From: Fragilariopsis cylindrus CCMP1102
Taxonomy: Eukaryota; Bacillariophyta; Bacillariophyceae; Bacillariales; Bacillariaceae
DNA: 64,000 nt
Assembly (NCBI GenBank): GCA_900095095.1
Contig: FMBT01000290.1
Span: 248,001-312,000 of the forward strand
Direction: 5' to 3'
Below, piece after piece: positions 619 through 57,012 of the stretch. Within the stretch, counting starts at the first letter, position 1, and every line of letters starts with the position of its first letter. The position numbers and the translations under genes are program-made. The notes under the pieces were generated by a model, which saw only the letters and a program-made list of their open reading frames with translations, made no database searches and was not told where the DNA came from.

Positions 619-1203
619 ATGGTATCTGATAATGCTACGGCAGCGGCGAGAGGCCGATGTCGAGACATCGACGATGACGACGTCCCCAACAACAACACAA
701 GCAATCCAGCAGATGAGCATATAATTTATATTTCTCGAAAAGTCGGAAAGGCTAATCCAAAACGTGATGCTCTATTATTTTTTGGATTTTTAATGTTCGT
801 ATTTCTAATTTCATATCAAACAGGAGATGTTGGATACAGTATGAATAGTGATAATAATAATGCTTCTAACGATGATAATGACAATGATGACAATAACGGT
901 GGTAACAAAAATAAGAATAATAGCAATCGTCGTCATCATTCTTCAGCAGCAATTAATGGATGGGGAAATCGACGAAAACAATTAAGGCGTGCATTATTGA
1001 ATCCCTTGGTGACTATCATGAACAATTATCTGAGTAGAAATGGTATTAATAACAGTGACGATTTACATAATTGTGATTATTATTTAGGCTCATCGTCAAT
1101 GATCTCATCATCATCATCCTACGAGGATGATGATGATGGAGGGTCATCATCCTGGGGAATATTTGCAGGAAGAAATTATCTAGTAGGGGAATTAATTTTA
1201 ATG

Positions 1204-1235
<32 letters not shown>

Positions 1236-3137
1236 CCATCATCATCGTACCACCCAAAAAGATAATAATGAAGAAGAAGAAGAAGAAAAGAAATCTTTCC
1301 AATCAATAGCGACAATAATACAACCACTGTCTTTTCTTCTTAAACCGCATTCAATATTATCAAACGTAAGATGGGATTCTATTATTTCGTCTTCATCGTC
1401 GAAGGAGGAGGAGAAGAAGAAGACTGAAGCATCATCATCATCATCGTCATCGTCATCCCTGGTAGCCACACGAGATATTAGAGAAGGAGAAGAACTATTT
1501 CTTTCATGGAATGATCATCCGTATTATAACTCTCTACAGTCGTCGTCGTCGTCCTCCTCCTCCTCATCCTCAACTTATTCCTCCCCAATACTTAATGGCG
1601 ATGGTGTTAATAATAGCGATACATCTTACGATTATAACTTCGCCAATCGTTTACCTACTCTTGAACATTACCGTCGAGCTGATGATCTTATTAGGGATGC
1701 TATATCTGTATACTTGAGCAGCAGCAGTAGTAGCAACAACAACAACAATAATAATAGTAATAATAATGGTGATACTCAAGAAATCAACAACAATAGAAAC
1801 AAAAATAATAATCGCCGAAACCAATACAGCCACGGTGGTAGAAACAATGCAAGATGGAATAAGAACAATGCAAAAGCAAAGAAAAAGAAACAACAAAAGA
1901 ATAATATTTTGATACATCAGGATATAAAAAGTGGATTACTTTTATTGCAACGAGCTGTTGCTCGATATGATCATCCGTTAGTAGCAAAATTGTTACCCAC
2001 CACGGAACATGCATTAAAGAAGTATCATCAGGAATATAATAATATTATTGATAAACCGTCATCATCGCTGTTGTCGACTCCGATGTCGATATTGGGGTCC
2101 TTAAACAATAAAACTGTTGTATCCTTAGCAGTGAACGCTCAATGCATGAGTCATATTCGATGGGCAAAGTCATCATCAACATCATCATCATCACCTGCGC
2201 CGACACCACAGATTGAGAAGGACATCACGACGACAGTAGGAGAAGATAATCTCGACGATTCCTTCTCATCATCTTCTTCATCGCAACCCCATCAACAAAT
2301 AGTGTCAAAGGCAAATGGGTTCCTACATGGTGATGTATTGGCTATAGTGCCACTTTTGATCTTGCAAGATGCAACATCATCTATAGAAGAGAAACATGAT
2401 GATGAATCATGTTCTGCATCGTCATCATGTACTACTGCTATTGTTGACACTTGCATTCCCTTACAGGAGCAGTATTCAGCGAGGACGTCGTTGTCCTCTT
2501 CCACATTGTCATTATGTCCATTATTTGGTATTCAAGAAGTCACTCAAGATCCAAAACGTGCCAATGTCAAATATATGTGGAGTACTACTAATGATGATTC
2601 TATTATGGGACAAAAAACACTGCGATCATTCCTACTAATATCATCGGAAGAGGAAGATCACAAAGAAAGACAATTGCAGCTAAAAGGAACACTATTAAAG
2701 GTAAGCTGGGGGAGGGGAGGGAGATGGACGTCTCTTCTATTTTTCAAAATGGAAGAAAATAACAGGAAAAGTCAACTCGCTCACTCTTCACAATAAAAAT
2801 ATTTTTTCTATCGTTTTTATTTCTTTGATACAGAAATATCCTCTTTCAATGACCTGGAATTTGGTAGCATTACGAGATATTCAGCAGAATGAAACAGTAT
2901 GTATAATCAAAGACCATACATTATAGATGTTGATCTCGCGAATGTGACGATGTCTTTGTTAATTTTTTATTGCGTCTCTCTGTGCCGTTTTCCCTCAAAA
3001 GGCTCATTTCGTCCCTTTCCTTTTTGCTTTGATTTGCTTTGATTCCTTCGTGATGAATAAATAATCATAACCAGCTTGTTGTTTATCAACCCGAAAACAT
3101 CCTTCATGTCGACACTAAGTTGAAGATAACAACGTGA
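619..3137 (+). CDS. SET-domain-like protein with N-terminal membrane anchor (3 exons)
   Basis: Exons are 619-2700, 2834-2896 and 3075-3137, both introns in phase 0, giving 735 residues. A hydrophobic segment near residues 52-66 (LLFFGFLMFVFLISY) suggests a membrane anchor. The motif GIFAGRNYLVGELI and, after a long insert, LVATRDIREGEELFLSW look like the start and end of a SET fold. A second, weaker pair follows: GFLHGDVLAIVPLL, then across the introns LVALRDIQQNETLVVYQP. This suggests two degenerate SET-like units. Homopolymer runs (14 His near 1205-1246, and Ser, Asn, Asp) interrupt the domains. The catalytic Asn-His-Ser/Thr core of active SET methyltransferases is not recognisable, so activity is doubtful. 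The exon choice is supported because splicing rebuilds the second RDI..E motif. Confidence 0.6.
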
Positions 3138-37817: not shown

Positions 37818-40800
37818 ATGTCGTCGTCAACGTCGTCATCCTCCTCTGCTACAATGAAGAAAAATAAGTCGTCGTTGTCTCAACTAATTCGAGAACGAGA
37901 TATGAAACGAGAAACCTTATCAAATCTCTTTGAGGAGAAAAAAAGGATAATGGATCAAATGAAGGCAATGAATGAAGATTTGCTTCAATTGGATGACGAT
38001 ATAGAGGCTTTAGAAGAAGCGCATGAACAAAAGCAGCAAGCCCAACGACAACAGCAAGTCCAACCAAATTCAAATTATAATTCATCATCGGCACATCGGC
38101 GGCAAATTTCACCACCATCACAAGTAAAATCGGAACCGACAACAGACTCAAACGATTCTTCAACATCGGTCGTATTGATGACAATGAACCCAGATGAAGT
38201 CCTTTCCGAACCGGATCAACCGACTCAGACTACACCACAGAGACAACAATTCGATGACGAGCAACTGACGGATCCTCTTACGTGGATGACGCAGGCAGCA
38301 GAAGGAGAAAGAGGAACAGAACCAGTAGCATCCACGTCCACAGTCGAACAACAACAACGACGACGACAGCTGCATCAGGAGCCCGCAGCTCCAGATTATC
38401 ACGATAATGACTACTTCTATGACGACGACGACGACGACGACGATAATAATAACAGTAAAGATGATGAAAGTCGTGTCAATTACAGCAACAATAACAATGT
38501 TACCGCTACAAACAACAATACAAATAATAATAACACATCGGCAAAGCTTCCTCCTTTGCAATTTGAAAATGTCAATGGTCCTAAAGCAGCCACTTCCATG
38601 CAACGTACTAAAGCGACGGGGACACTTGATAGCTTTATCGTTCGCAACACTTCGACACCAGCCGTATCATCATCATCATCATCATCGTCACGAGCCAACA
38701 ATGACTGTCCGTATTCTCAGCATGACATTCAACAGACACTAAGCCAATCATTTCGATTACAGAATTTCCGAGAGAATCAACTTGAAATCATTCAGTCTAC
38801 TCTTAGTGGGAAGGACTGTTTCGTTCTAATGAAGACGGGAGGTGGAAAGAGTTTGCTGTATCAGTTACCGGCTGTCCTTGAATTTCCAAAGATCACTTTA
38901 GTCGTTTCACCATTATTGAGTCTTATTCAGGATCAAGAAGATCAAATGAATGGATTCGTTCGTAACTCATGTGTTAGTTTTTCTTCGGGGATGAGCGTAA
39001 CTGAACAAAATGAGAACTGGAACAAAATTCGGGATGTAAATTCAGGTGTTATGATGATTCTAGTAACACCAGAACGGGTTTTCAAGAGTAACAAGCTCAG
39101 GTCAGAATTACAAAAGCTAGAAGAACAAAATCGACTTGGACGATTTGTTATCGATGAGTGTCACTGTGCTTGTCAGTGGGGGCACGACTTTAGACCAGAT
39201 TATGCAAAACTCCAGGTTCTGCGGCAGCATTTTCCACAAGTTCCAATATTGGCAGTAACAGCTACTGGTAAGACATTTAAACAGTTGTATCTTCGACCAT
39301 TGCCTAGACAAGACCAAACCAATTTCTTTGTAACTTGCTTTCTTACATTATTCTTTATTTCTACGACGTCGCAGCATCAGAAGAGGTCCGCAAAGAGTCT
39401 GCACAAATTTTTCAGTTATCTTCCGATCATACATTCTTCCGATCCACAGCCGATCGACCAAATCTTACCTACCAAGTACGACCAAAAGATTCCAACGTCA
39501 TTCAAGATATGACCGAGTTTATCAAGGAAAAACATCCACGTTCTGCAGGAATCGTATATACGTACTCAAAAAAGGATGCTGACACCGTTGCTAATGAATT
39601 GTGCCAACAAGGGATTGTAGCATCTTCCTACCATAGTGACGTGACTCCAGTCCGTAAGAAAGCGATTCATCAAAGTTGGATGCGAAATAGGACGCAAGTT
39701 GTCGTTGCCACAATTGCATTTGGATTGGGTATCAACAAACCAGATGTTCGATTCGTCTTTCATCACACTCTGAGTAAGACCCTGGAATCGTACTATCAAG
39801 AATCGGGAAGAGCAGGTAGAGATGGTAAACAAGCTGATTGTGTTTTGTTCTATACTGCGAAGGATGTACCAAGAATGTTGAAAATGATTGCACCAGATGT
39901 TAAGTTGTTTATGACAATGGTTAGGTACGCCCAACAGTTTGGAGATGACCGAGCTTGTCGGGCTCTTATTTTACGACATATGGGCGAACCTAATCAAGAT
40001 ACTGGAAATTTCGCTGGAGTTAGTGATGGGGTGGAAATCCGGGATGTTACGTCTCACGCAATTACTCTAGTTCGTGTTCTGATGCACTTACAAAATAAAA
40101 ATGTAACGTTGAACATGCTAAATGAAGAATGGAGAAAGAAACCAACGAACGCTTTAGATTGCGTAAAAGATAATCCTCCAAATACTGATCTTACAAAAGA
40201 AGATTGCGAACGAGTGATTATTGGTTTACTTGTAAATGGTTTTAGTAAGTTTTATTTATTTTTAATCAGCAGGAGGTCTTTACGTGTATTATATCATTTA
40301 CTCACTCAATTTCCTTTTCTTAAAAACTACAGTTGCGCCGACCTACCGATACACAAGTTACGGAACTGTTGTATATCTTGAATGTACAGAGAATGCAAGA
40401 AAGTTCATTGCATCCAACAAAGCAGTAATGAAAGTGCGACTCCCAAAAAAAGTGCGTGCGAAACGAAAATCGAATGCAAATACAACAACCCCGACGAGTG
40501 AAGATGGATGGATTGATAAAAGTGCGAAACGAAAGCGCACTTCAGAGGCATCAAAATCAAAAAAGAAAGTAACTACAAAGAAGAAAGCCACTACTTCAAA
40601 GAAAGTGACAAAAAAGAAGGCAACATCGAAAGCGAAAAAAGGAGCAGCGAAGGGGAAACCAAAAGCAAAGGAATCAGCTAGGGGGAAAGAAAACACCGAA
40701 GTGATCGAAATTGATGACTCTGATGATTCAGATTCGAGCGAACTTGAATTCACTACAGCAATAAAGGCTCGCCCAAGAAGATCATCTGTGCACTCCGCCT

Positions 40801-41572: not shown

Positions 41573-44500
41573 CTATGGTTCTAGACAATCATTTCCACGA
41601 TCCTCTGACTCTGACCCGTATGCTCCAGCCCCAGGCGTCTCGATGCGAAGACGCTCGTCGACTTTCCATGGAGTACTACACCTTCCACCAATATTCACGA
41701 TCACACCGTTCTTTCGAATGAGTAGATTTCTACCACACGTTCCCGGTCCACCTCCATTCATACCGTATGGCTGAAAAGAAGAAGAAAAGTGAAAGACATT
41801 AATAAGTACAGTTCAATATATCAAAGAAAAAGGCACAGTAGTCGTATGGAAAAACCCACAATGCTACTTACTTGTAGGACGCGTCTCTCACTGAGGATGC
41901 TAACAGTCAACGGACGAAGTGGTTCCATCTCTCGGATAACACCATCACCACCTTTGTGTTTACCCTTACCACCACTGCCTTTGCGTATCGAAAACTCCCG
42001 AAGAAGGATAGGATACCTGCGTTCAAGAATTTCTGGATCAGTAATCTGTAAAAGAGTGGAAAAAATATGAGTAAGACACTGATAAGTCGAACATCGAACG
42101 AGAATGATAATTGTTCATCGTTTGTCAGGAAGTTACTAGCTAATTTACGCACCCGAGTATTAGTACAGTGTGTATGTATTCCCGAGCGACCTTTCCATGT
42201 AGGCCCAGCTCCAGCCCCTCCTGCAATCGTCTCATAATATCCGAATTTTTCGTCGCCAAAAGTCAGGTTGTTCATACACCCTTGAGAGGCTGCACATGCA
42301 GAAAATGCCTTTAGCACGACATCAACAACCCTTTGAGATGTGAGCACGTTACCGCCAACAACACCAGCATCAGCAGATGGACTTAGCAACGAGTGCTCTG
42401 GAATAATGAAAGTGATCGGAGCTAAGCACCCTTGATTGAGCGGAATGTCTTGAGCAACCAAGGAACGAAGCGAATAAATAACTGCACTGTATGTGACTGC
42501 TGGTGGTGCATTATGATTCGCAAGCACTTGCGGGCCTGTGCCTGTAAAGTCGAAGATAGCGCTTCCTGTTTTTGGGTCGATTTCAACAGAAAGTTTGATA
42601 GGCGACCCATCATCCATATGATCGATAGCGGAAACCTTTTCACCATTTGTCGCAGCAAAATCCTTTAACATAACACGGACAGTTTGTTCTGCATTTTTTT
42701 GAATAAAATTCATGTATGATTCTACTACGTGTAATCCATTTTCGTGCACCAGCTCTTTCACAAGACGAATTCCGGAGTTATTTGCAGCAACTTGAGCTCG
42801 AAGATCACTGAGGTTATCTTTTAAATTACGGGTACCGGAGTTTCCAGGAATCAAACCGGGGGCCATTAGGATCTCTGTGACTCCCTCCTCTTGAAATTTC
42901 CCATCCTTGACCAGTTTGAATGCAACGATCATGGCTCCTTCATCTACAAGTGATTTTGAATGTGGTGGCATAGAACCAGGTGATATCCCACCAATATCAG
43001 CGTGGTGACCGCGGCTCGCAACAAAAAATATTACTTCTCCGTTGAAGAATACTGGAGTAATGGCTGTGATATCAGGTAAGTGAGACCCACCAGCAAGTTG
43101 TGGATGGTTCGATATAAGAACATCCCCTTCTTGGATTCCTTCTCGCTGTCCCCAATATTCGACTTGAAATCGGACAGCTGCTTGCATTGCTCCCAAGTGT
43201 ACGGGAATGTGAGGCGCATTTGCTACCAGACCGCCGTCCTTTGTGAAAAGTGCACAGGAAAAATCCAATCGCTCCTTCATATTAACGGAAATTGCAGTTC
43301 TCTGTAGGGTTTTACCCATTTGTTCAGCGATGCCCATAAATCGGTGTGAATATATGGATAACTGTACGGCGTCCTCTTTGACTTCTGTAATTTCATTCTC
43401 GGTATTGTTGGTGTCTTGCTGTTGTTGGCCAATTTTAATCTTCAAATCACCGTCTTGAGTAACAAAAGCTTCACAGTCTACCTCCAATACTACAATGGAA
43501 ATAGGCTGAACAATAATACCGGGTCCTGGAATATTGTGTCCAGGTTTAAGGTCCTCGATCTTGTATACCGGAACTTCTTGCCATCCTGTTTCGAAATATG
43601 CCTTTGTAAGACCAAGACTGGCAGTTGGAGTACCAATTGGTACGGGAGTTGGTGGAGTGGACAGGGTTTCTCCTGGAACGACAGCCCGAACACGGTAATC
43701 ATCAATTACAATCTCTCGATCCTGCAAGACGAATCCAAATTCTCGCTCATACAGAGCGATAAAGGACTCTTCAAAAGTAATATCCGGATTTCGAAGTATC
43801 ATTATGGCATTATCAGTACCTTCGTACCGCATATTCAAATACTCTTCGACAACAATACTATTTTCATCGTATCCTTGTTTCTTTAAAGCTTCAGTTGAAA
43901 CATGCTTCAAATGGGCAAGACGCTCTTTTCCGTTGGTAGATATGACACCTTTGTAGACTTCTGCTGCAGGCTCCTGATCCTCGTGTACAGCATCTGCCAA
44001 CAAAAGACCATATGCACTCAATACACCTCCATATCGGTGTACAAATACCTCTGACATTCCAAGCGCTTTTGCCATAGCACAAGCGTGCTGTGGGCCGGCT
44101 CCACCGAAACACGCCAAAATGTGAGTGGTAATATTGAAGCCCCTCATTTGAGTTAGATTTCGAATGGGACGACACATTGCTTCGTTGGCAACCTGTAAAA
44201 ATCCCCACGCCAGTTCGGCTGCCGATCGACCTTTTGCCTCCGGTAGTCGTTCCAATTCTTCAAATGCTAATCGTGCTGCGTCTGTATCTAGTGGTTGATC
44301 CTCGTTGGGACCAAATATATTTGGGAATTGTTCCGGTAGGACTCGACCTAGGACTAAGTTAGCATCCGTGACCGCCAAATACCCGTTCTTGCGATAACAT
44401 ACAGGTCCCGGATGTGCACCAGCGCTTTCTGGACCGACAATAAACATCCCCCGTCGGAGAAATAATCGAGATCCTCCACCGGCGGCCACGGTGTGAATAT

Positions 44501-45894
44501 CCAGTTGTGGACTGCATGCAAGAGAGATTGATAATATTTTTAAGCATTATTCGAAAAGGTTTTGAGTTTCACCTAAATAAAGCCAAACATAAGTAAAGAA
44601 AAACACAAAACCAGCATAGGTACTATAGAGGAGGAATAAAAATAGAACAAAGAATAGCTACTCACGCTTGGATGGATATACCAGCGGTGACCGACTCGAA
44701 AACATGCTCGAGATGTCCATCGAATCGTGACACGTCGGTACTCGTACCTCCCATATCGAAACCGATCACAGGTGTTTTAGTAGAAGTATTGTACGTTGTC
44801 TTGGCATATCCGACCACCCCACCTGCATCAACAAAACAAGTCAGGGTATAGCGGCAAAAAAATTTGCGCCGTTGGGGGAAAAGAACAAAAATAAGTCAAT
44901 CAAAGAACCGTTTTAAATCAAACAATAACCGATTAGTTCAAAGAAACTCACCAGCAGGGCCACTCAAAATAGCTTGATGTCCACCAAAGTCGTTCACTGG
45001 AGCTAATCCACCGTCCGACTTCATGAATTGCAATGGAACATCAGAAAGACGTTCGTCGAATCCACGCATAAAGTTGGATAGATATGTAGTAATTTTCGGT
45101 GTCAAGTAGGCTGCCGCACATGTTGTATGTCCCCGAGGTACTAATTTAATCATGGGCGTGACTTGATGACTCATAGAGATATGTTCAAAGCAGCCCATAT
45201 CACGTGCAAGATTCCCAACCATAACCTCATGATCGTGGAAGGTATAAGCGTGCATAAATGCGATAGCCAAAGATGTGATACCAGCATCACGTAATCTTTC
45301 TAGTTCGGTTTTCACTGCTATCAAATCAGGAACCTCTTCAACGAGAATACGTTCTTTAGTAACACCAACCTTACGAGTCATATCCTTCATCGGAGATCGT
45401 TCCAATAATTCCGAACAACAAAATTCTTCCAAAATAACTCGTTCCTTCACTTCCACTACTTCTTCATAAAGTAGACTAGGTGTTTTACAGGATAAATCGA
45501 AAATATCAGGACGAGCTTGATTGCCGATTTCTAACAAATCACCGAAACCTTTTGTTGTAACAAGTGCCATTCGTGCTCCCTGTCGTTCCAGTAAAGCGTT
45601 GGTTGCAACTGTGGTACCCATACGGATACTACCAATTCGATCTGTTTTCACCGGCTTACTACGAGGATACTCGATGCCACTAGCCGGCGAGTCGTGCTCT
45701 TGCAGTAATCGACGAATACCTTCCGTGGGAGCATCTTCGTAATGAGATGGATCCTCACTTAATAGTTTGAACACAACCTCACGGCCTTCGGGTAATCTAC
45801 AAACGACATCTGTAAACGTCCCACCACGGTCGATAGCGAAATGGAACTTGCCGTCGCCGCCGCCACTGATATCCATGCTGTCGTCGTTAGACAT
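41573..45894 (-). CDS. OPLAH: 5-oxoprolinase, ATP-hydrolysing (5 exons)
   Basis: Exons are 45894-44952, 44822-44666, 44511-42153, 42045-41872 and 41770-41573, joining to 1276 residues (the animal enzyme has about 1288). It opens 5-oxo-L-proline to glutamate using ATP, in the gamma-glutamyl (glutathione) cycle of the cytosol. The N-terminal half is the hydantoinase A domain: [17 protein letters not shown] at the start, [28 protein letters not shown] across intron 1, and [16 protein letters not shown]. The C-terminal half is the hydantoinase B domain: [61 protein letters not shown], and finally [13 protein letters not shown] and TPGAGAYGS. All introns are GT-AG and keep these motifs whole. Its divergent neighbour is a dipeptidase that could act in the same cycle. 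Confidence 0.95.
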
Positions 45895-46443: not shown

Positions 46444-48021
46444 ATGGTGTCTACTGGAGTTACAGAAGTGAAAACTTTTTCCGATGAAGAATTTTTTAAT
46501 CTTGTGGATGAAAACACATCACTATTCATCGATGAGTTAGGCGAAACCGTTGCGATTCAATCCGTTTCTGCTGAATTGGAGGAACACCTGGATGATGTCA
46601 TACAAATGATGGAATGGGCTAGTACACGCATACAAAAACTTGGAGGGACAGTACAGATGGTTCCAAACCCTGCTGCAACATCAGACCGTCCACTCCCACC
46701 AATCCTTTTAGGAGAATTTAATACAAATGATGTTTCGAAGAAAACCGTTTGCGTATATGGACATTTGGATGTACAGCCTGCTAACATTGAAGATGGTTGG
46801 GACACCGAGCCATTTGTTCTTACTGAAAATGACGGGAAACTATATGGTCGTGGATCAACGGATGATAAGGGACCCGCCCTCAGTTGGTTATGGATCATTG
46901 AGCTACATCAGAAGATGGGTGTTGAACTACCAGTTAATATCAAAATTCTGTTTGAGGGAATGGAGGAAAGCGGTAGTGAAGGTGTATTTGAAGTAATTCA
47001 TACTGAAGGAAAACCGGGAAAGTTCTTAGATGACGTCGACTTCTTTTGTATCAGTGATAATTATTGGCTCGGAAAAAATAAACCTTGTATCACATATGCT
47101 CTCAGAGGATTAGCATACTTTCAACTTTCAGTCCAAGGTAGTACCCAAGATCTTCATTCAGGTGTTCTGGGTGGTACTGTTCATGAGGCAATGACGGACC
47201 TAATCGCATTGATGGGCACATTGGTAGATTCTAGTGGTAAAATTCTTGTGGAGGGTGTAATGGCTGACGTAGATCCAGTCACAAAGGAGGAAGAGGCACT
47301 ATATGATACAATTGATTTTGATATGGAAGAATATAAGGAAGATAATGGAATTAAAAGCGTCAGCGATAAACTCCTACACGATGATAAGAAATCACTTCTG
47401 ATGCATAGATGGAGATATCCCACGCTGTCACTTCATGGTATTGAAGGAGCGTTCAGTGGCAAGGGTGCAAAAACTGTGATACCAAGAGAAGTAATTGGGA
47501 AATTCTCTTTGAGGTTGGTACCAGATCAAGATCCAAAGAAAATTGAAAAATTAGTAGTAGATCATATTTCAACTGAGTTTATGAAACTGACTTCGCCAAA
47601 CAAAATGAAGTGTGAAATGCTTCACGGTGCTAATGCATGGATATCAGATACAAAACACCCCAATTACGAAGCTGCAGCCAATGCAATTGAAAAGGTTTAC
47701 AATGGAGTAAAACCAGATTACACTAGAGAAGGTGGCTCTATTCCAATCACTTCTGCCCTGGAGAATGCAACAGGGATGAACGTTCTCTTGTTGCCTATTG
47801 GTGCATGTGATGATGGAGCACATTCTCAAAACGAAAAGTACAACATCAGCAATCTCGTTAATGGAGTGAAGGTTTTGGGTATCTACCTTCACGAACTTGG
47901 AAAGATAAAAGGACCCAAACCGTCTTCGTGTAAATGTCCCGCTCCGTTGACCGAAGAAGAGTTGATGATACCGGGTGCATTTGCATTCATGCGTGGCTTT
48001 GGGTGCAAATGTGAAATGTGA
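46444..48021 (+). CDS. CNDP2: Cytosolic non-specific dipeptidase (M20 family, CNDP2-like)
   Basis: Single exon, 525 residues. These metallopeptidases cut dipeptides such as Cys-Gly, the last step of glutathione breakdown. Metal ligands are visible in order: VCVYGHLDVQPA, GRGSTDDKGPALSW, GMEESGSEG with the catalytic Glu, CISDNYWLG and DDGAHSQNEKYN. The lid domain contains STQDLHSGVLGG and MHRWRYPTLSLHGIEGA. Start ATG 46444 was chosen over the non-ATG opening at 46435. The C-terminus has an extension, CKCPAPLTEEELMIPGAF to GFGCKCEM, with two C-x-C pairs not found in the animal enzyme as I know it. Confidence 0.95.
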   Translation: MVSTGVTEVKTFSDEEFFNLVDENTSLFIDELGETVAIQSVSAELEEHLDDVIQMMEWASTRIQKLGGTVQMVPNPAATSDRPLPPILLGEFNTNDVSKKTVCVYGHLDVQPANIEDGWDTEPFVLTENDGKLYGRGSTDDKGPALSWLWIIELHQKMGVELPVNIKILFEGMEESGSEGVFEVIHTEGKPGKFLDDVDFFCISDNYWLGKNKPCITYALRGLAYFQLSVQGSTQDLHSGVLGGTVHEAMTDLIALMGTLVDSSGKILVEGVMADVDPVTKEEEALYDTIDFDMEEYKEDNGIKSVSDKLLHDDKKSLLMHRWRYPTLSLHGIEGAFSGKGAKTVIPREVIGKFSLRLVPDQDPKKIEKLVVDHISTEFMKLTSPNKMKCEMLHGANAWISDTKHPNYEAAANAIEKVYNGVKPDYTREGGSIPITSALENATGMNVLLLPIGACDDGAHSQNEKYNISNLVNGVKVLGIYLHELGKIKGPKPSSCKCPAPLTEEELMIPGAFAFMRGFGCKCEM

Positions 48022-48397
48022 TGACAAAGTAAAGTACAGTAGTGGATCCTTCGAATTTAAAAATGTTATGCTCTTTATAAATTCAACTATATTTTTTTGT
48101 CTAATCTAAGCCTTCTAGCTAAATAATATACTATATACAGGAATGTAATGTTTATTATTGTTATTGTTACTTTTATATGTAGGTAGTAGACAACCATTCT
48201 CGTTTATGAATGAACGAAATGGAATTTAATGGCATCGCAGCTGTATCCTCGTCCTGTATCCGATTTTTTCGGAGTTCATAATATATAAGATATAATAAGA
48301 ACTCTTCATTCATTCGTCACAGGAAGAATTTCATTTGTTCGATAAAGTTACTACCACCAAAAAAAACCAAAGAAAGAATGAGAATATAGCAACTATC
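48022..48397. other. 3' flank of the dipeptidase and selenoprotein genes
   Basis: Spacer between convergent genes. The selenocysteine insertion element of the minus-strand gene should lie here or further on. I found no structure with the full ATGA, apical AA and GA pattern; the nearest candidate is discussed under rejected items. Confidence 0.4.
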
Positions 48398-49294
48398 CTA
48401 AACTAGCTTCTTGAATACCGATAGAATTTCATCCGGTGGTTGAGCTCCACTAAGACTATATTTGTCATTGAAGATAAAGAATGGAACACCTGAAACACCA
48501 TACACACGTCGATATTCCTCTAACTCCTTCAAAGTTTCATTCTTGCCATTATTTGACTCTTCAAGAAATTCCTTTACGCTTACGTCGTCCATCATACCCT
48601 CCACCCTATTTGCACAATCAATAAGAACACTTAGATCGCCCATACTCTTTTCTTCTTCAAAGTATGCCTTAAATAAACTTTCGACGACCTTATCTTGTAA
48701 ATCGATTCCACCTACTTCTTTTGCCTTCCATATTAGTCTATGACTATCAAATGTATTACCGGTATAACCACCATAACTAAAATTAATTCCTTCTTTTAGT
48801 CCAGTTTCTTTCATCTGGGGGAGCATTGTATCCATCCTAGATTTACCAAATTTTTCCAAGTACATTTCCATCTTGTTCACTCCCTTTCCTTTCGGAGCAG
48901 CAGCATTTAATTGAAATGGTCTCCATATGACATTAAAATCAACATCCTTAAATTGAGGATCATCATTTGCCATCTTGATCGCTAATTCAAGTCGACGTTT
49001 ACCAATAAAGCACCAGGGTCAGACTGTATCAGAAACAACATCAATGTCAATGGTGGTGGTACGTTTTTTTGCTAGTGTGTCAGCATTTTCATTATTGGCG
49101 GCGGACATCATTCTTCTAATAGTTGTTGTTGTTGTTTTCGAACTGAACAATTTGCGAACGACGACGTTGTTGTTGTAGTTGCTGAAACGGTATTGTTGGA
49201 GAGCTGTAACTTTCCCAAAGAATACCATATAAGATATCACTATTGAGACAAGAAGTTGTTGTTGTTGTATTCGCAATCCCTTGCAAACATTCAT
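48398..49294 (-). CDS. DsbA/FrnE-type thiol oxidoreductase, probable selenoprotein (UPWC)
   Basis: 298 residues if TGA 49021-49019 is read as selenocysteine. The start is ATG 49294; a stop lies upstream in frame. The N-terminus is a signal peptide-like stretch (LLVSIVISYMVFFGKVTA). Residues 83-91 (IDVVSDTV) form the first strand of the thioredoxin fold, then U92-P-W-C95, then FIGKRRLELAIK. The rest matches DsbA/2-hydroxychromene isomerase-like (FrnE) proteins: VIWRPFQLN, GGYTGNTFDSHRLI, LFKAYFEEEKSMGD and the cis-Pro loop GVSGVPFFIFNDKYSLSGAQ. FrnE homologues have CPWC at the active site, so the TGA stands exactly at the nucleophilic Cys. The frame is intact on both sides. TGA ends other genes in this window, so this is not a changed code. 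A recent nonsense mutation or sequencing error (TGC to TGA) is the alternative. Confidence 0.82.
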
Positions 49295-55249: not shown

Positions 55250-57012
55250 CTATATCCTCCCTCTCACAACACAATCCTTGTAGTTTGATAGAAACTCAAT
55301 GATCGTCTCTTCTGTGATATCTTGTTCGTCGCTTACATAGTAGTTTCCATCATTGGGTATATCCAACAATACCATTGATGGCAAATCTCCGATGGTTCCC
55401 AAGTTACAGGCATTTCTTATGTTAGAACAAAGCGCTGCATCGGCGTTACAGGCCCAATAAAATTTAACCAACTCGTCGTCACTTCTGTACTCTTCGGCAG
55501 CATCTCGTACCGCATATTCGATATCCATTTGCTCTTCTTCATCGCCACCCTCATGAAAAACAACCAGGCACTTATGAGTATTTATATCATCCGTCGTTTT
55601 ACAAAGGTCGCCCCAAGGTTTGGGATAAAATGGAAAATCTGTGATGTAATCTCCATTTTCAATCACTGAACGAACTTCAGAATTGATAACGGGACGGTCA
55701 CCAAAATTATCATCCTCATCGACTGGTCGCGGACCCAGCATGATCAGGGTAGGATATGAAGTGATTTCTAAACGCATCTCAAGACCTTCTCTCGCTTCTG
55801 TATCTTCATATGGAATAGCACAAAATGATGTTCCAGTGATAAATGTATCATAGCTTGCTTGCGATGCATCACCACTGACGAAGAGAAGCTGTTGTGTGAT
55901 TAGAAATAAATAGATTATATACCATGAGAATTATGTTTCACTTCTTTAATGAAAAACTGGGAATAAATTCCTACTAAAGAGCAGTGGAGATTTATCCTCT
56001 TTATTGCATACAGAGTTGATATAGTTACACCAAACGGAGTGTCACATTACTATTCTTTCTTATATTCATATAATACTTACTTCGAAATCTTGTCTCTTCT
56101 TTTTTAGAATGTTATATGCCTTTACCAACCACGGTGTGAATTCTTGAGCAAGTGCATCGGAATGAGATGCAAAGTATAGTAGAATATATTTTTCATCAAG
56201 ATCTATAGTAGGAGAATGATGCACTGATAATGATGATGATCTTGTGTTGTCGATATTAGATACATAATTTTTTGGTAGCAGATCAACAATACGATTCGGT
56301 CTCCAGGGGAAATATTTACCAGTTGGATCTTGTGTAAGTGCATCGACACCTTCTTTGGTTATAATTGTTCCATCCTTATCGATAACTACAAGATGAGGCA
56401 TATTATGAGCCTTTAATGATGCAATAAGCTTCGGTAAAGTCGCTATTGCGTATGGTAGACACCAAAATTGCGACACATTATCCTCTGTATACATATTGTA
56501 ATCTTCCAAACTTCTATCCATAGAAACAAAAATGACTTCAAATTCTTCCTTTACTTTATTATTAAGTTGATGAAATAAATGTAACTTCGGAAGAAACTTC
56601 GAACATGCTGTCCAAGGAAAAAGCATCGACAACAACGAAAATATACTGTGAGTATATACGCCATAACGGCGACAATACAAGTATTCATCCATACCAAAAC
56701 TTACGTTCTGACCAGTGTGCTCCAAAGTATAACACGATCTGTAATAAAAAGTAGAACAGCAAATATGACAACGATGAGCAGAATACATATACATCAACCA
56801 TAAATTACTACTACTGCATTTCATTTTACATGATGTCGAAATAAAAAGGTAAAAAAATAAAAAACAGTATCAACCATCAACCATCAACCGTAGTCTTCTT
56901 TGTCACTCACTCCTTTATTCGTTAATACTTGGACAGGATCCGCTGATATTTCCATGGATGGTTTCACAACTTCATCGCCAAGTAACGTAAAATCAAATTC
57001 TTCTTCTGCCAT
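55250..57012 (-). CDS. Nucleoredoxin-like protein with two thioredoxin folds, no CxxC (4 exons)
   Basis: Exons are 57012-56911, 56738-56705, 56607-56081 and 55888-55250 (phases 0, 1, 0), 433 residues. The tiny 34-base exon 2 encodes IVLYFGAHWSE and joins exon 3 as WSEPCSKFLPKL at residues 43-54; nucleoredoxin and tryparedoxin have WCPPC here. Thus the reactive Cys is Ser and only the resolving Cys remains. EVIFVSMDRSLEDYNMY, FWCLPYA, MPHLVVIDKDGTIITKEGV and DPTGKYFPW confirm the fold. A second domain (ILLYFASHSDALAQEF, LLFVSGDASQASYDTF, EITSYPTLIMLGP) has no CxxC at all. No signal peptide. It may be a redox-inactive binding protein. The exon choice is supported by phase and by restored motifs. 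Confidence 0.82.

Follow-up and report, generated by a model that had tools for sequence, protein, structure and literature searches.

The question raised by this locus is whether a TGA codon standing in frame at the active-site cysteine of a predicted disulfide-handling enzyme is read as selenocysteine (Sec), or whether it reflects an error, a mutation, a different genetic code or a leaky stop. The gene lies in the window, by which we mean the whole 64,000-nucleotide stretch of DNA analyzed, and the coordinates of its features are collected in Table 1. Re-translation confirmed the reading frame, the place of the TGA and the residue count given in the original prediction, all of which were correct. 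With TGA written as U, the protein starts with MNVCKG and reads through DTV, U92 and PWCFIGKRRLELAIK into 191 more residues before the TAG. U92 is the sole TGA of the frame, which contains no other internal stop.

Table 1 Features of the DsbA/FrnE-type gene and of its 3' flank
Feature	Coordinates	Strand	Remarks
CDS, DsbA/FrnE-type protein	48398..49294	minus	298 residues with TGA counted as a residue; ends in TAG
N-terminal presequence, residues 1-61	49112..49294	minus	hydrophobic stretch LLVSIVISYMVFF (read by eye)
DSBA thioredoxin-like domain, residues 84-292	48419..49045	minus	Pfam PF01323, E 1.5e-29
Proposed Sec codon (in-frame TGA, codon 92)	49019..49021	minus	first Cys position of CPWC
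Active-site motif U-P-W-C, residues 92-95	49010..49021	minus	resolving Cys95 intact
Pro271 of GVPFF	48482..48484	minus	V270 and P271 invariant in alignment
Gap to the convergent M20 peptidase gene	48022..48397	minus	376 nt; space for a 3' UTR
SECIS-shaped hairpin, candidate SECIS	48245..48329	minus	68 nt 3' of TAG, within the 376-nt gap

At the base composition of the gene, stops are expected at 7.6% of codons; the chance of finding 297 open codons is about 6e-11, and for the 206 open codons that follow the TGA it is about 8e-8. In the two remaining sense frames we counted 19 and 34 stops. The GC content per codon position 3' of the TGA (0.50/0.31/0.31) is coding-like. An intron that removes the TGA was considered and rejected, as no acceptor AG occurs from the TGA to the PWC codons (TGACCCTGGTGC), so that splicing could not drop the TGA and yet retain PWC.

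We then weighed two explanations under which the gene is of the ordinary Cys type. The first is that sequencing or assembly went wrong and the codon is really TGC or TGT, either of which is only one base away from TGA. The second is a recent nonsense allele, or a pseudogene that formed recently from a Cys-type FrnE gene, which agrees with the presence of a single stop. Both also agree with the finding, described below, that the 3' gap holds no canonical SECIS. The position of the stop argues against both, however. Single-base changes can create a TGA by 29 routes in this gene and any stop by 124, and the Cys92 codon provides one route in each case; a random TGA-making error would therefore strike codon 92 about once in 29 times (once in 124 for any stop), and the same odds apply to a nonsense mutation. 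A SECIS-shaped hairpin 3' of the gene also speaks against an error, which we regard as unlikely. A decaying gene is at odds with 298 codons free of a frameshift or a second stop, with the coding-like GC pattern beyond the TGA and with the retention of columns invariant among five bacterial homologues; this explanation seems very unlikely to us.

The family of the protein is well defined. The Pfam DSBA match runs across the TGA, and the best PDB sequence match is Deinococcus radiodurans FrnE (5cnw, E 1.3e-24, residues 74-294). Homology 5' of the TGA is short, the FrnE alignment beginning at residue 74. An AlphaFold2 model of residues 82-298, computed from an alignment of 8 rows with the TGA replaced by C, had a mean pLDDT of 90.8 and a pTM of 0.88. 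When this model was used as a Foldseek query, the five best matches were all entries of D. radiodurans FrnE, with TM scores of 0.82-0.84 by query; the best PDB fold match was again 5cnw (TM 0.84/0.79). In the alignment with the five bacterial homologues, P93, C95, V270, P271 and F273 are invariant, and the window protein retains the columns that are invariant among those homologues. Pro271 is presumably the cis-Pro of the loop that faces the active site in the DsbA family. By its domain, its predicted FrnE-like fold, its CPWC/CPFC-type site with TGA for the first Cys and its VPxF loop, the protein is assigned to the DsbA/FrnE thioredoxin-fold oxidoreductases. The active-site motif occupies the same position as the CPWC of D. 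radiodurans FrnE, with the difference that FrnE has Cys where Sec is proposed in the window protein. Some other bacterial homologues have a C-terminal tail with a pair of Cys; the window protein lacks this tail and has an N-terminal presequence instead.

The presequence is without counterpart in the five aligned bacterial proteins. Its hydrophobic stretch hints at import into the secretory system or into a plastid, and the presequence is possibly a targeting peptide. It should be noted that codon periodicity is weak over residues 1-61, so that the exact start is uncertain; the true start could be Met62/63 rather than Met1.

Around the TGA, the alignment with the bacterial proteins has no gaps (DVVSDTV-U-PWCFIGKRRL is aligned with DVVSDVV-C-PWCYLGKKRL of the first homologue) and bears out the original claim that the stop falls exactly on the first Cys of CPWC. 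This column is Cys in all five plasmid-borne homologues, which were hand-picked from 787 matching records, and in 12 of 12 loci from two further homologue searches; for one of these loci (L010) the CPWC was read from its translation. A survey of 198 genomes from the phylum to which a Lacihabitans record (L008) belongs gave 57 matches in 55 genomes and no internal stop in any of the 57; all 30 of the loci fetched from among these matches have C at both active-site positions. In total, Cys occupies the column in 47 of the 47 loci of prokaryotic type that were read. They amount to at most 46 distinct genes, as one locus (L023) comes from the genome that contains L008 and evidently repeats that gene. 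Cys is the rule at the codon-92 column in the prokaryotic-type homologues sampled, and TGA was not seen there. Among IMG/VR sequences, a single-protein query gave no relative, and an alignment query gave two loci, both of the Cys type. Degenerate patterns returned no UPWC stretch from IMG/VR and one UPFC stretch (L018), which was rejected, its frame being full of stops and its record being without a DSBA match. No eukaryotic relatives were found in the prokaryotic, viral and plasmid collections searched (10 of the 787 plasmid-search records were listed).

In the Euplotes code, TGA is read as Cys, and a genome-wide reassignment of this kind would account for a TGA at a Cys position. In the genomic setting of the gene, a chaperonin profile is covered jointly by two adjacent ORFs, the first of which matches CCT zeta; the split implies an intron, and the window is, as judged from CCT zeta, nuclear eukaryotic DNA. 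Further genes in the window also look split. The N-terminal part of a DEAD-box helicase (37818-39512, plus strand) and its Helicase_C part (39509-40381, plus strand) lie in overlapping ORFs that share an ATGA, and an intron or a frame error is likely in this gene (37818-40381, plus strand). A hydantoinase/oxoprolinase gene (41907-45894, minus strand) with domains A and B is divided over two ORFs, probably by an intron. A nucleoredoxin-like gene (55250-57012, minus strand), with a Thioredoxin_8 match and a weak Thioredoxin_6 stretch, is probably split by introns as well; its usual CPPC seems degenerate (GAHWSE ... ACSKF, read by eye). No tRNA was detected in the window by ARAGORN, and no Rfam family matched there at gathering scores.

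TGA is a normal stop in the window. It terminates 12 of the 30 ORFs examined (38 were listed), some of which probably run into introns, and it ends the convergent M20 peptidase ORF, which closes with TGATGA after a domain match that reaches profile position 201 of 206. Against a reassignment one may also count 125 Cys residues encoded by TGC or TGT in 16 ORFs (8515 codons), which is weak as evidence since, by the way ORFs are defined, none of the 16 can contain an in-frame TGA. We consider a TGA-to-Cys code to be extremely unlikely here.

Regulated termination or readthrough, with another amino acid inserted and a mostly truncated product, is a further alternative. A UGA followed by C is a leaky stop context, and the UGA of this gene is followed by C (TGACCC). 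Readthrough leaves unexplained, however, why the stop sits precisely on the nucleophilic Cys, and truncation at residue 91 would remove nearly the whole domain (residues 84-292). We judge it highly unlikely.

The TGA placed exactly at the key Cys of this disulfide-handling enzyme most likely denotes a selenium-containing form of it, and an in-frame TGA where the prokaryotic-type homologues have Cys is the positional signature of a selenoprotein gene. We also scanned frames no shorter than 150 codons that contain a TGA for U..C, C..U, U..S, U..T and U..U motifs. This gave 23 hits, among which UPWC is the only recognizable redox site (read by eye); the other 22 were stops of other ORFs, antisense frames (including a UYPC antisense to the peptidase) and low-complexity frames. 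The 28 other routes to TGA and 123 other routes to any stop, together with the rejection of an intron at the TGA and the uniqueness of the redox site, favor Sec by a factor of some thirty to one hundred over an error or a pseudogene, before priors. The gene is, in our assessment, probably a eukaryotic DsbA/FrnE selenoprotein gene in which UGA codon 92 is read as Sec. Sec92 had been put forward in the original prediction, and it holds as the best reading by virtue of position, family and the Cys column; the candidate SECIS signal is imperfect.

If so, Sec92 would replace the nucleophilic N-terminal Cys of C-P-W-C. By analogy with the family, it would attack the substrate or form a mixed bond, and Cys95 would resolve the mixed selenyl-sulfide; the protein would act as a thiol-disulfide oxidoreductase by cycling between a U92-C95 selenylsulfide and the selenol/thiol form, with the conserved VP loop facing the active site. 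A SECIS in the 3' UTR would guide the insertion of Sec, and the likeliest candidate for it is the hairpin 48329-48245, which has the general shape of such an element and not all of the canonical motifs.

This hairpin was compared with the canonical requirements of a SECIS, namely AUGA or GUGA, an apical AA or CC, the GA quartet and two helices, and no element in the 376-nt gap has all of these. The SECIS_1 model (RF00031) had no match at its gathering score across the window. At a relaxed threshold (E up to 10) and in narrower regions, no Rfam SECIS was listed; since all 4227 families enter into these E-values, a weak SECIS_1 score would not appear. Other sub-threshold Rfam hits (sR43, mir-973, snoU83 and PreQ1) were far below their gathering scores and were taken as chance. 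Nor did two motif scans of the gap find an [AG]TGA-AA/CC-GA element whose helix II is paired; one of them required 4 helix II pairs, which excludes register A, described below. The 11 candidates with AA or CC that this latter scan returned were rejected, as all are antisense within the M20 peptidase ORF. A control scan with RF00031 of one bacterial and 14 control genomes gave no match anywhere and is hence uninformative.

Free folding of 48345-48225 (121 nt), which includes the candidate hairpin, gave a minimum free energy (MFE) structure identical to the centroid, at -26.3 kcal/mol (z -2.53), with 3 of 200 shuffles as good. MFE folds of 110-nt windows on both strands (128 kb) were then scanned for an unpaired RUGA and GA flanking a helix and enclosed by an outer helix. 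Among the six matches, the hairpin 48329-48245 ranked first by pair count (13 + 15 pairs; 12 + 13 in the next). When the 376-nt gap was shuffled 1000 times with its dinucleotides preserved, any match arose 11 times, a match with no fewer than 10 and 7 pairs 5 times, and one with at least 28 pairs once; it should be noted that the scan criteria were set after the hairpin had been seen and without calibration against true SECIS elements. The second-best fold by pair count, at 2850 on the plus strand, lies about 50 nt 3' of the TAA of an ORF (619-2796, plus strand) that has neither a Pfam match nor an in-frame TGA, and is probably a chance structure. In a looser scan for RUGA/GA with an outer helix, a hairpin at the TGA at 47989 on the minus strand scored -17.3, against -16.6 for 48329-48245, the lowest of 200 shuffles being -15.55. 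This rival (47989-47927, minus strand) was rejected; it is antisense in the M20 peptidase ORF, its inner part measures 59 nt, and it is absent from the MFE scan.

The hairpin can be read in two registers, neither of which is canonical. In register B, AUGA (48309-48306) lies opposite CGAA (G at 48270) and helix II is well paired, with no apical AA or CC. In register A, GUGA (48320-48317) lies opposite GGAU (48261-48258) and helix I has 10 pairs; an AA (48306-48305) follows ten bases 3' of the UGA, directly 5' of a long mini-stem, and helix II consists of CGA/UCG (3 Watson-Crick pairs) and a purine-rich loop. The constrained energies are -22.5 for register B and -19.5 for register A. SECIS elements of Ostreococcus are described as having a G ahead of the core and long mini-stems (PMC2375036), and GUGA_AA SECIS elements are described for several algae and a sponge (PMC3473315). 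Since the canonical motifs were looked for and are incomplete, we term the hairpin a candidate SECIS, and on the basis of its predicted fold it is plausible as the signal. The original prediction had named the absence of any SECIS from the full 3' UTR as a result that would refute it, and here the outcome is divided: Rfam and the motif scans yielded no canonical SECIS, and the gap does hold a SECIS-shaped, non-canonical hairpin. One tentative possibility is that decoding uses a non-canonical algal SECIS with a long mini-stem and a tandem G.A core, its apical AA/CC missing or displaced, which standard models would miss.

The original view that Sec forms of DsbA-type proteins are mainly bacterial has been overtaken by the literature, in which eukaryotic Sec-DsbA/FrnE proteins are already published from algae and marine invertebrates. 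Of the Sec proteins of algae, DSBA is named as one of the most widespread, a point in favor of the Sec reading, and diatoms have 20 to 44 selenoprotein genes (PMC7539508); these algal proteins are Sec-DsbA forms, as is proposed for the window gene, and their SECIS elements were searched with SECISearch, whereas no canonical SECIS was found here. Sec-FrnE is described in Mamiellophyceae and M. viride (PMC6627142); these proteins share the family name and the Sec form proposed here, and the likeness is by description, their hosts being photosynthetic eukaryotes of the green lineage. Sec-DsbA is reported in two Ciona species and amphioxus (Branchiostoma), with one noted in Micromonas (PMC2874816, in the portion relied on here). 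These have UxxC, as is proposed for the window protein, and SECIS elements are shown there for the two Ciona species and Branchiostoma; they carry an apical AA or CC, whereas the well-paired register of the window hairpin has neither. Selected passages further give DsbA in six marine invertebrates, with the Sec form in four (PMC3473315), and list DsbA UxxC selenoproteins from marine microbes (PMC2398784). In the portion of PMC2375036 that covers the 16 selenoproteins of T. pseudonana, a thioredoxin-like protein is named and DsbA is not, a point against the Sec reading.

The kind is therefore known in eukaryotes, and the window gene is probably a further Sec-DsbA/FrnE, this one of a microbial eukaryote. 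Standard gene prediction would cut it short, as the list of ATG-initiated ORFs yields just its 191-aa tail. If the hairpin is a working SECIS, the accepted consensus would have to be widened for this lineage, and current models may be missing other selenoproteins.
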